Shown here: in pieces, positions 60,022-63,783 of the stretch
How positions within the stretch are numbered: position 1 is the stretch's first letter
Layout of the letters: each line of letters starts with the position of its first letter
NCBI GenBank assembly: GCA_028285305.1
Contig: JANQPV010000044.1
Coordinates: 248,001-312,000, forward strand
Length of the DNA stretch: 64,000 bases
Source of the DNA: Alphaproteobacteria bacterium
Lineage (GTDB): Bacteria; Pseudomonadota; Alphaproteobacteria; SMXP01
Direction: 5' to 3'
Notes under the pieces: generated by a model
Told to the model about the DNA's origin: nothing
The model's database searches: none
Seen by the model: the letters and a program-made list of their open reading frames with translations, nothing else
Translations under genes and position numbers: made by a program

Positions 60022-60535
60022 CGACGAGCGAAAGCAGACAATCCTCCTCACTGCAGCGGAGCTGGGCCGGACTTCAGAATACAGGATAGTTCATCCGCTA
60101 AATGACGAGTCTGTCCGGTATACGAAGCCACTTGGTGATCTGACGGGCCTCAAAAAGATGGGTGTGCATCTGGTCAGGGTGGAGCCGGGCAGTCAGTCCT
60201 CGGAATTACATAATCATGAAATCGATGAGGAATTTGTCTATATCCTAGAAGGGCGCGGCGTTTCTGTGATCGATGATCAAGAAACGGAAGTGGGTCCCGG
60301 TGACTTTTTGGGCTATACGACCAGCGGGCCCGCCCACATGATCAAAAACCCGTTCGATGAAGATCTCGTTTTTCTGGTGGCAGGTACGCGGTCGGAAATG
60401 GACGCCAACACGTACCCGCGTATCGGCATCCGTCAATTCAGAGTGAAGAGCATCAATCAGCGTGAATATGTGAAGCAAGATGACATTACGCACGTGACCA
60501 TCGCAGCGCAAAAGGTGGAGCCGAAGGACGCTTAG
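60014..60535 (+). CDS. Cupin-domain protein
   Basis: 173 aa. Cupin motif 1 reads S-S-E-L-H-N-H-E-I-D-E-E-F-V-Y-I-L-E-G near 62-80 with the His and Glu metal ligands; motif 2 is P-G-D-F-L-G-Y near 92-98 and G-P-A-H near 102-105. Metal-binding beta-barrel of unknown function. ATG overlaps the GST stop by 8 nt, with GAGG upstream. Convergent with gluQ, stops overlapping by 4 nt. Confidence 0.82.
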   Translation: MADDERKQTILLTAAELGRTSEYRIVHPLNDESVRYTKPLGDLTGLKKMGVHLVRVEPGSQSSELHNHEIDEEFVYILEGRGVSVIDDQETEVGPGDFLGYTTSGPAHMIKNPFDEDLVFLVAGTRSEMDANTYPRIGIRQFRVKSINQREYVKQDDITHVTIAAQKVEPKDA

Positions 60536-61413
60536 CCTAGGGCGGTAGAGAGATTAAGCCGATTGCGGATCTCCTCCGGGCCAACGCCCTGTAACCTAAG
60601 TGCCCGAAGGGTTTGATCCTTGTCCCGTTTGGCCAGACGTTTTCCGTCTTCCCGATGGATGAGGGGATGGTGACAATATTCGGGAACGGACATGCCAAGC
60701 AATTCCTGCAGTGCCCGCTGAATGTGCGATGCCGGAAAGAGATCCTCTCCCCTTGTGACCAGTGTGATGCCTTGGTGATGGTCGTCCAATACGGTCGCCA
60801 GATGATAGCTCGTGCCGACGTCCTTGCGGGATAGGATCAGGTCGCCGAAAAGGGCGGGCTCGAGGGCGAGCGTCTTTTGTGTTTCGTAAAGTCCGTGTTC
60901 AAAGAATGTTGCTGTCCTCATGTCCAGTTTTGCCGCGTTAAGCCGTACGGCGAACGCCTGTCCCGCCTCGATTTTCTGCCTCCGATTTTCGGGGCTTAAG
61001 GTGCGGCATGTGCCCGGATAGAGAGGACCTTCTGGGCCATGGGGTGCGTTCGGCAAATTCTTCAGTTCTTGCTGTATTTCCTTCCGAGTACAGAAGCACG
61101 GATAGGTAACGCGCCGGGCTGTCAGTTGATCCAGTGCAGACGCATATGCCTCAGTACGCGAGGTTTGGATTAGGGGGGTGTCGTCCCAAGACAGCTGCAG
61201 CCACGAGAGATCTTCATAGATTTGATCAATGAAGTGAGGCCGACACCGGGTGGTGTCGATGTCATCAATCCGTAGGAGGAATTTCCCACCGCTTTGCCGG
61301 GCAATGTCGTGGGCGATGATAGCGGCGTAGGCATGACCCAAATGAAGCTCTCCGGTCGGGCTGGGAGCGAAGCGCGTTGTTTGCGGAGTGTCAAACTGGG
61401 GTGGTTGAAACAT
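60532..61413 (-). CDS. gluQ: Glutamyl-Q tRNA(Asp) synthetase (GluQ-RS)
   Basis: 293 aa, a class-I synthetase-like enzyme without the anticodon domain. R-F-A-P-S-P-T-G-E-L-H-L-G-H-A-Y near 15-30 is the HIGH-type site, and K-R-L-A-K-R-D the KMSKS-like one. Zinc cysteines appear in Y-P-C-F-C-T-R-K-E near 105-113 with Y-P-G-T-C later. Charges glutamate onto the queuosine of tRNA-Asp. The ATG overlaps or abuts the TetR gene 6 nt upstream. Confidence 0.93.
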   Translation of the reverse strand: MFQPPQFDTPQTTRFAPSPTGELHLGHAYAAIIAHDIARQSGGKFLLRIDDIDTTRCRPHFIDQIYEDLSWLQLSWDDTPLIQTSRTEAYASALDQLTARRVTYPCFCTRKEIQQELKNLPNAPHGPEGPLYPGTCRTLSPENRRQKIEAGQAFAVRLNAAKLDMRTATFFEHGLYETQKTLALEPALFGDLILSRKDVGTSYHLATVLDDHHQGITLVTRGEDLFPASHIQRALQELLGMSVPEYCHHPLIHREDGKRLAKRDKDQTLRALRLQGVGPEEIRNRLNLSTALG

Positions 61414-61419
61414 GACCTC

Positions 61420-62019
61420 TCAACAGCCGAGCATCTTAGCCGCTAAGTCCTTCGCGGATGTGCACGCATAGTCTTCAGGAGCCACGCGGCCATCGATGAT
61501 TAGTGTGGCAAGACCGTGGACGATAGACCACGACGATAAGGTTCGAATATCGGTGAGGTTCGGCGGCGCTCCGTTTGCTTCAAGGACCTGAGCCACGCAT
61601 TGGCGCAGAAGCTCAAAGCTGACGGATGCGGTTTCGAGAAACTCGGTGTGATCCTTGTCGCTGCTCAACTGGCCGCTGAACATCAAATTGAAGAGGGCTG
61701 GATGCTTGGCCGCAAACTCGACATATCCGGCGCCGTATCGGTCCAACTGGTCCTGTGGCGACTTGCCTTCTTTCAGCGCCTTCCTCGCGGCGCCTGCAAG
61801 ATCCTGAAATCCGGTCTGAGCGATTGCCGCCAACAAAGTCTCTTTATCTTTGAAATGATGATAGGGCGCCGTTTGGGACACGCCTGCGCGGCGCGCGACG
61901 CCGCGCAGGCTCAATTTGTCCAACCCTTCTTCCTCAAGGATCTGCCGTCCGGCTTCGATCAGCGCTTCTTTCAAGTTCCCGTGATGATAGGCGCGGCTCT
62001 CGTTCGGACTTTTGGCCAC
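61420..62019 (-). CDS. TetR-family repressor, probable regulator of the carotenoid oxygenase
   Basis: 199 aa. GTG start at 62019 with GAGGAG just upstream. HTH: L-K-E-A-L-I-E-A-G-R-Q-I-L near 17-29, L-S-L-R-G-V-A-R-R-A-G-V-S-Q-T-A-P-Y near 36-53 and H-H-F-K-D-K-E-T-L. C-terminal domain matches the TetR_C_13/WHG-type group. Divergent from the carotenoid oxygenase; a long inverted repeat between them is the likely operator for both promoters. Confidence 0.9.
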   Translation of the reverse strand: MAKSPNESRAYHHGNLKEALIEAGRQILEEEGLDKLSLRGVARRAGVSQTAPYHHFKDKETLLAAIAQTGFQDLAGAARKALKEGKSPQDQLDRYGAGYVEFAAKHPALFNLMFSGQLSSDKDHTEFLETASVSFELLRQCVAQVLEANGAPPNLTDIRTLSSWSIVHGLATLIIDGRVAPEDYACTSAKDLAAKMLGC

Positions 62020-62041: not shown

Positions 62042-62146
62042 CTAGAGCCGTTTTGGTTTCAACGGAATTGCAAAACGGATCCAGACTGCTTGTTTTGCGC
62101 GTTTCCGGACGGTGAACCGGACTCCACTTCACCTGGAAACGCTCTA
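62042..62146. repeat. Dispersed 105 bp palindromic repeat, copy B
   Basis: Starts CTAGAGCCGTTTTGG and ends CTGGAAACGCTCTA; the two ends are nearly inverted. 78 of 105 bases match the copy at 2566-2670 with no gaps. It lies in the leader of the TetR gene, so its transcript is part of that mRNA. Confidence 0.82.
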
Positions 62147-62181
62147 GGGTTTAGGCCACAATTTTTACGTCGTAAAGTATG

Positions 62182-62220
62182 TTGACATTGTTAAGATTTG
62201 TGTTATCTTAACAACGTCAA
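62182..62220. promoter_or_regulatory. 39 bp inverted repeat, operator/promoter for TetR and carotenoid oxygenase
   Basis: Arms TTGACATTGTTAAGAT (62182-62197) and ATCTTAACAACGTCAA (62205-62220) match in 15 of 16 positions around TTGTGTT. TTGACA at its left end and TATCTT (62204-62209), 16 bp apart, form a plausible sigma-70 promoter towards the oxygenase; the mirror-image TTGACG/AATCTT faces the TetR gene. A second small palindrome, TTTACG-T-CGTAAA, lies at 62164-62176. Confidence 0.8.
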
Positions 62221-62238
62221 GATCAAGAGGAGGCATTT

Positions 62239-63783
62239 ATGTTAGATCGCCGTGAGTTGATGCAATTGGCCGCCGCCGGAACAGCGAGCACCGTCGCTGC
62301 CGGAATGGGGATGACCGTCGCTTTGGCACCGAGCAGCGCCAGGGCTGGAACACCTCTTTCTTCGAGCAAACAATGGATAGAGGCTTTAGGCCGGTCCTTG
62401 AGCACAGAGCATGATTATTCCCCTCGCGTTGAGGGCAAAATACCGGCCGACCTGTCGGGGGCGCTCTACCGGAACGGACCCGGCCTTTTTGAAAGGGGAG
62501 GCCATCGCAAGGCGCACGTGCTCGATGGGGATGGTATGATCCGCGCGCTCGATCTTCGCGGCGGCACCGCGCGATTTCGCAATCGCTTTGTGCGGACGGA
62601 AAAGTATCTGGAGGAAGAAGCCGACGGATCGCTGAAGTATAGCACATGGACCACACGGTCGCCTGGTGGTGCACTTTCAAATCTGGGCGGTGGCGCCATT
62701 AAGAGCCAAGCGGGGGTGACGGTCTATTCGGTCGGGAAAGATCTGGTGGCTTTGGATGAGGTGGGAAGTGTCTATACTCTTGATCCTCAATCCCTCGAGA
62801 CGACCGGCATGCTTCCCATAGACCCACAGAATCCTCCAGGTGCCTTAAAGGCGCATACGAAATTTGATCCGCAAACGGGCGAATGGCTATTGATGGGTCA
62901 AACGGTTGGACGCAAGTTCAAGTTTGAGTTTATGTCCGTCAGCAAAAGGGGCCAACTAAGGTATCACAAGATTATCGAGTCGCCTGCCAATTACTACATT
63001 CATGACTTTGCTATTTCTGAGTCTTATTTCGTGGTCGTGTTGAATCCGGCGGAGTTTTCCCCGTTTGGCTTTTTAGCGGGTATGCGGAGTTTTACTGATA
63101 GTCTGACCTGGCGTCCCGACCAGCCGAACATTGTCTTGCTTGTGCCGCGGGATGCTTCTACTCCCGCCCGGCGTTATGAGGCGCCGGCCGCATTCATGTG
63201 GCATGCTCTTAATGCTTATGAAGCGGGAGACGAAGTCGTTCTCGAGTTTGTGGGGTATGACGAGCCTGATCACTTCATAGGCGATAACCCTCTGTTCAAA
63301 TCGGTTATGATCGGCGAGGAGGGCAATTCCAAATATCCCGGTACCGCTCGGCGGTATCGCATGAATACAAAATCTTTCGACTTGACCGAAGACATCCTGA
63401 GCGACGCCCATCACGAGTTCCCTATGACGTCTACGGATGTGGTGGCTCAACGGCACCGGTTCGGGTATTTCGCTGCCGGTGCGCCGAGCCATTTCTTTGG
63501 ATTGTCACAACTGGTCCGTATGGATATGGAAACCGGTATGCGTGATACCTATGATCATGGGCCGAATGTCTATGTGGGTGAGCCTGTGCACGTACCGGCT
63601 GCCGGGCGCGCCGGTTGGATCCTCCAAGAAGGGCAAGACGGAAACACGGGCAATGGATTTTATGCGATCTTTGCCGCCGATCAGATCTCTGGCGGACCGG
63701 TCGCCCGGATTTTGCTCGACCATCATCTGCCGATTAGCTTCCACGGCCATTGGCGCGCAGACGGGCATGCTGCGGCTGGCTAA
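62239..63783 (+). CDS. Carotenoid oxygenase (RPE65/CCD family) with Tat-type signal
   Basis: 514 aa. The start L-D-R-R-E-L-M-Q-L-A-A followed by a hydrophobic stretch to A-R-A-G near 37 is a twin-arginine-like signal, which suggests export of the folded iron enzyme. The four iron histidines of the family are readable: H206 (K-A-H-T-K-F-D), H255 (Y-I-H-D-F-A), H322 (M-W-H-A-L-N-A) and H502 (F-H-G-H-W). Substrates could be carotenoids, stilbenes or lignin-like dimers. GAGGAGG precedes the ATG. Confidence 0.93.
   Translation: MLDRRELMQLAAAGTASTVAAGMGMTVALAPSSARAGTPLSSSKQWIEALGRSLSTEHDYSPRVEGKIPADLSGALYRNGPGLFERGGHRKAHVLDGDGMIRALDLRGGTARFRNRFVRTEKYLEEEADGSLKYSTWTTRSPGGALSNLGGGAIKSQAGVTVYSVGKDLVALDEVGSVYTLDPQSLETTGMLPIDPQNPPGALKAHTKFDPQTGEWLLMGQTVGRKFKFEFMSVSKRGQLRYHKIIESPANYYIHDFAISESYFVVVLNPAEFSPFGFLAGMRSFTDSLTWRPDQPNIVLLVPRDASTPARRYEAPAAFMWHALNAYEAGDEVVLEFVGYDEPDHFIGDNPLFKSVMIGEEGNSKYPGTARRYRMNTKSFDLTEDILSDAHHEFPMTSTDVVAQRHRFGYFAAGAPSHFFGLSQLVRMDMETGMRDTYDHGPNVYVGEPVHVPAAGRAGWILQEGQDGNTGNGFYAIFAADQISGGPVARILLDHHLPISFHGHWRADGHAAAG

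Follow-up and report, generated by a model that had tools for sequence, protein, structure and literature searches.

QacR is a TetR-family repressor of which two dimers bind one long palindrome (IR1), sharing overlapping sites, and in the Tn10 tet system the two operators stand about 30 bp apart, centre to centre. These Tn10 operators, tetO1 and tetO2, overlap both the tetR and the tetA promoter, with a TetR dimer on each (PMC3037858). For carotenoid oxygenases the closest described system is in Mycobacterium kansasii, in which the divergently encoded CcoR (TetR/AcrR) represses the carotenoid cleavage oxygenase Cco1 and loss of ccoR raises cco1 about 100-fold; the pair corresponds to Rv0653c/Rv0654 in M. 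tuberculosis, and the condition that induces M. kansasii cco1 is described as unknown (PMC9861118). The words “operator” and “inverted repeat”, and any word in “palindrom-”, are absent from the main text of PMC9861118.

The locus described here lies at the end of the 64 kb window (the whole stretch of DNA that was analysed), where a tetR gene and a carotenoid oxygenase gene diverge, 219 bp apart. As in Tn10 tet, a divergent repressor and target gene would be joined by two separate operators over both promoters, the promoters here being assigned by consensus only; the operator sequence, target enzyme and ligand differ from those of Tn10, and the spacing here is 26 bp. The likeness to CcoR/Cco1 is one of gene arrangement, a divergent TetR and carotenoid oxygenase, although M. 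kansasii belongs to another phylum and its pair is known genetically, without an operator. With QacR IR1 the locus has in common a TetR-family repressor, two dimers (predicted here) and a long palindrome, but each dimer would have a near-palindrome of its own, in two non-overlapping 19-bp units 7 bp apart. The features are as follows.

61420-62019, minus strand: TetR-family repressor gene; GTG start; TetR_N and TetR_C_33 domains
62042-62147, no strand assigned: 106-bp dispersed repeat with CTAG at both ends; boundaries from the alignment of its copies
62161-62179, no strand assigned: possible third, weak operator-like site on the tetR side, around a 13-bp dyad; PWM score 11.8
62179-62197, plus strand: predicted left 19-bp operator ATGTTGACATTGTTAAGAT; 7 of 9 dyad pairs; PWM score 26.9; conserved in divergent-pair relatives
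62182-62220, no strand assigned: 39-bp inverted repeat composed of both operators
62182-62187, plus strand: -35-like TTGACA of the oxygenase promoter, within the left operator's outer half; consensus match only
62193-62198, minus strand: -10-like AATCTT of the tetR promoter; weak match
62204-62209, plus strand: -10-like TATCTT of the oxygenase promoter, 5 of its 6 bases within the right operator's inner half
62205-62223, plus strand: predicted right 19-bp operator ATCTTAACAACGTCAAGAT; 7 of 9 dyad pairs; PWM score 25.8; conserved in divergent-pair relatives
62215-62220, minus strand: -35-like TTGACG for tetR, within the right operator's outer half; consensus match only
62239-63783, plus strand: carotenoid oxygenase (RPE65 family) gene; PF03055, E 2.6e-103; twin-arginine-type N-terminus (DRRELM)

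The repressor matches TetR_N (PF00440, the N-terminal helix-turn-helix) with 50 bits against a cut-off of 24, and TetR_C_33 (PF13305, a ligand-binding domain) with 52.1 bits against 26.8. Its predicted structure is an all-helical TetR fold (pLDDT 94.2) with 3on2 as the best PDB match (Z 20.2, rmsd 2.3 over 182 residues). PF13305 was also matched in five of 14 named control genomes, no mycobacterium being among those five. PF03055 (RPE65) covers most of the oxygenase (347 bits, residues 55-506), and the nearest solved structure is apocarotenoid-15,15'-oxygenase, with whose own histidines four of the protein align; we take these to be the iron-binding ligands. A twin-arginine-type leader was found by pattern in five of eight close relatives of the pair, and by eye in L114. 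The tetR gene ends 6 bp ahead of a Glu/Gln tRNA-synthetase-like gene (60532-61413, PF00749); therefore an autoregulated tetR promoter may also drive the synthetase-like gene.

The original prediction of arms of 16 bp, matching in 15 positions around a 7 bp centre, is borne out at 62182-62220, which reads TTGACATTGTTAAGAT-TTGTGTT-ATCTTAACAACGTCAA. It had been placed at 62164-62220, an interval that opens 18 bases too early: the repeat proper begins at 62182, and the preceding bases hold a separate perfect 13-bp dyad, TTTACGTCGTAAA, at 62164-62176. No second inverted repeat of equal quality (16-bp arms with 15 or more positions paired, loop of at most 12) occurs in the window, and none arose by chance when the intergenic region was simulated 2000 times with a first-order Markov model, or in 20 simulated 64 kb windows.

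The unit within the repeat appears to be smaller. The predicted operators follow a 19-bp near-palindromic pattern of the type ATSTTRACA-N-TGTYAASAT, and their centres, 62188 and 62214, lie 26 bp apart. A position weight matrix (PWM) learnt from relatives, with the window excluded, gives its two highest scores in the window to 62179 and 62205, and none of 3000 Markov simulations of the intergenic region attained the paired score. The weak site around the 13-bp dyad scores fourth best in the window, and none of the listed relatives has a counterpart at the same place.

The whole repeat was first read as one 39 bp operator embracing both promoters and bound by one complex, probably of two TetR dimers. 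A TetR-controlled element overlapping both promoters is supported, and so are two dimers, but not a single operator; the element is better described as two separate predicted 19-bp TetR operators. A composite operator of 39-45 bp, on which a tightly interlocked, QacR-like pair of dimers recognizes the palindrome as a whole, would explain why the two sites resemble each other more closely in inverted (17 of 19 positions) than in direct orientation (14 of 19), giving the whole a dyad too, and the 26 bp between centres, about 2.5 helical turns, would put the dimers on opposite faces of the DNA; elsewhere in the subfamily the spacing mostly comes closer to a whole number of turns (20-22, 31-34, 41-43 and 51-53 bp). 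We nevertheless consider this improbable and rejected it as the main reading, because every 19-bp unit has its own dyad, because the inter-site distance ranges from 20 to 53 bp over 40 TetR homologues with at least two sites while the unit stays constant, and because a lone full-consensus unit, ATCTTAACAATGTCAAGAT, occurs elsewhere in the same genome (G000:C67:602-620, L149). The overall dyad follows from the juxtaposition of two near-palindromes and from promoter constraints that they share: both outer halves contain TTGAC and one inner half TATCTT. The lone unit lies between genes for a membrane protein and an FAD-dependent oxidoreductase, and is a possible second target of the window's TetR.

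The motif search proposed with the original prediction, in genomes with the same gene pair, favours the two operators. Oxygenase homologues were found in 29 of 191 related genomes and 13 of 385 genomes of the class (E 1e-60); in the phylum to which L099, an Acidimicrobiales record, belongs, 25 of the 396 genomes searched had a homologue at E 1e-35. Close relatives of the oxygenase phylum-wide (398 genomes, E 1e-60) were confined to the window's own genome (1 of 398), plasmids yielded distant oxygenases only (five records), and the four genomes of L032, L045, L087 and L099 gave no oxygenase match. A TetR gene was looked for at 61 loci and is present at 19, in divergent orientation at 15 of these (window included). 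In ten of the non-window divergent pairs, TetR identity to the window's protein is 36.9% or more (L003, L004, L005, L006, L007, L029, L112, L113, L114 and L206), close kin included, L005, L112 and L113 sharing one genus code. All ten carry two copies of the 19-bp motif (at least 12 of 18 positions), spaced 26-27 bp in eight, 43 bp in L006 and 23 bp in L206; the second copy is weak in both L004 and L206, and in L206 it escapes the PWM, which detects the first alone. By motif, the two-site arrangement is kept in distant bacteria.

Loss of the repeat from relatives that keep the pair, which had been named as the refuting observation, is not seen in these ten; it is seen in three of the 14 non-window divergent pairs (L013, L022 and L190), whose TetRs are distant. 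The three scanned loci with an oxygenase homologue and no TetR gene (L008, L009, L010) contain no site of at least 13 of 18 positions anywhere in the locus. The actinobacterial search for the mycobacterial-type pair found a divergent TetR at two of 26 loci, L206 with its weak 23-bp pair and L190 without. Such operators are also missing from the same genome's second divergent TetR/oxygenase pair (L122, G000:C51:205039-208551) and from its same-strand TetR/oxygenase pair (L134, G000:C24:183124-186348). L116 is a decayed pair: several stops interrupt its oxygenase frame, and a single operator survives. The TetR paralogues L118 (C36) and L120 (C28) have paired sites of their own with the altered letters TAGACA/TGTCTA, and at L156 (C24) another pair of sites, 43 bp apart, is flanked by genes for a small membrane protein and a transporter.

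Correlation of helix residues with operator bases is the kind of evidence already used in studies of other families, GntR (PMC4494728), IclR (PMC8222616) and MerR (PMC5045206). In the present subfamily 125 TetR homologues were counted; duplicate or overlapping loci, 14 in all, had been removed beforehand, as had the repeat loci L160-L189. With a site called at 13 or more of 16 positions, base 3 unscored, 59 of them have a site within 250 bp upstream; at this threshold and distance the other 66, of which 51 have Arg54, have none. Of 110 motif matches in all DNA examined, 99 fall in the upstream windows of the 125 homologues, which make up 36,460 of the 818,488 positions.

Base 3 of the half-site tracks residue 54 of the recognition helix, which we take to be the equivalent of TetR Trp43 (the phmmer range is of equal length): His goes with C, Arg or Lys with G, and Asn with A. 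The residue is readable in 58 homologues, and apart from five ties (L228, L043, L073, L206 and L123) all those with a majority base agree (53 of 53). By half-site the agreement is 179 of 196. None of 20,000 label shuffles reaches such agreement. Among 13 helix positions, residue 54 is the most informative on base 3 (1.41 bits, against 0.67 for the next). Of the 22 homologues fetched after the residue-base idea, which came from the oxygenase pairs, had been recorded, 13 have sites; 12 of these agree and one is a tie. On the tree, from an alignment in which the column of residue 54 was kept, at least ten residue changes and nine base changes are needed. Relatedness weakens the correlation: well-supported branches give two independent contrasts per residue-base pairing, and while all agree, a sign test is not possible with only two per pairing. 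Nor is the code extendable to Ala54, since no palindrome was found for the Ala54 TetRs L217, L218 and L234. In the Asn54 members L065, L072, L055, L069 and L073 the two sites of a pair are separated by 51-53 bp, or roughly five turns of the helix, as against 26-27 bp in the oxygenase pairs.

In the window the TetR residue is His and the four half-sites have C, C, C and G at base 3, a match by which the code would tie the sites to this repressor. Another regulator, or RNA polymerase alone, might use the repeat with the tetR gene as a bystander, and TTGACA and TATCTT are indeed promoter elements on their own; we regard this as very unlikely, since the presence of sites tracks an adjacent TetR and their base 3 tracks that TetR's own recognition-helix residue.

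The promoter boxes of the oxygenase, TTGACA and TATCTT, had been placed inside the repeat, and there they are, 16 bp apart and facing the oxygenase gene. Their expected mirror facing tetR is also inside, with the same 16-bp spacer, but imperfect (TTGACG and AATCTT). The same TATCTT at the same spacer occurs in L005, L007, L112 and L113, and CATCTT in L114. A long inverted repeat could instead act as RNA, in a hairpin, attenuator or terminator. This reading was rejected, and we give it hardly any credence: with the promoter boxes inside the repeat, the two arms would not be present together in either predicted transcript, the sequence is rich in A+T and no run of T follows the repeat, and its conservation tracks TetR residues.

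The region between the genes is very probably a two-operator, autoregulated control region, judging from its sequence and that of its relatives. We infer that one repressor dimer would bind each near-palindrome and that, so bound, it would block RNA polymerase at both face-to-face promoters, repressing the oxygenase gene and tetR itself, until a ligand releases it. Either dimer would block the polymerase, since both -35 boxes fall in outer half-sites and the -10 box of the oxygenase promoter in an inner one.

The 106-bp repeat sits between the operators and tetR and lengthens the tetR leader. At least 41 matches to it occur in the genome, among them L161-L189 (40 of 106 first-look candidates were scored), and it was rejected as a part of the operator since it is found in 41 places. 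The distance from site to estimated tetR start is 8-142 bp in the other oxygenase pairs, against 178 and 204 bp in the window, which is consistent with insertion of the repeat into the tetR leader. Many copies lie exactly at contig ends, so the repeat probably breaks the assembly.

The original prediction proposed the oxygenase's substrate as the ligand, a plausible guess; the likeliest guess is a carotenoid-derived or other isoprenoid compound. Elsewhere in the subfamily, TetR genes are divergent to genes for carotenoid-isomerase/desaturase-like (CrtI-like) oxidoreductases (L032, L034, L035 and L062); the NCBIfam matches of all four enzymes are below cut-off, and therefore indicate relationship, not function. 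Other divergent partners are a P450 (L120) and a fatty-acid hydroxylase (L087), and the neighbours in L045, L065, L097 and L118 have no carotenoid link.

The paired-operator arrangement is well supported and of a known kind, the tet-type divergent one; the residue-base code is the newer part. Open-licence literature on TetR with carotenoid oxygenases, apocarotenoid ligands, helix covariation and TetR_C_33/WHG yielded no such operator or code, and the letters of the core motif gave unrelated occurrences only. A broader proposal, which we advance tentatively and hold to be somewhat doubtful, is that the subfamily recognizes its operators by a single-residue code (ATC-type half-sites for His, ATG-type for Arg and ATA-type for Asn), and that sites paired at 26-27 bp are the mark of a repressor module which is conserved across several alphaproteobacterial families and would sense a carotenoid-derived or retinoid-like compound. 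In the literature searched, the partnership of regulator and carotenoid oxygenase had hitherto come only from mycobacterial genetics, and the present locus adds the operator side to it. The residue-to-base rule would allow operators and targets to be predicted from sequence for many unstudied TetR_C_33 regulators, and a bacterial sensor for carotenoid breakdown products becomes a testable idea.
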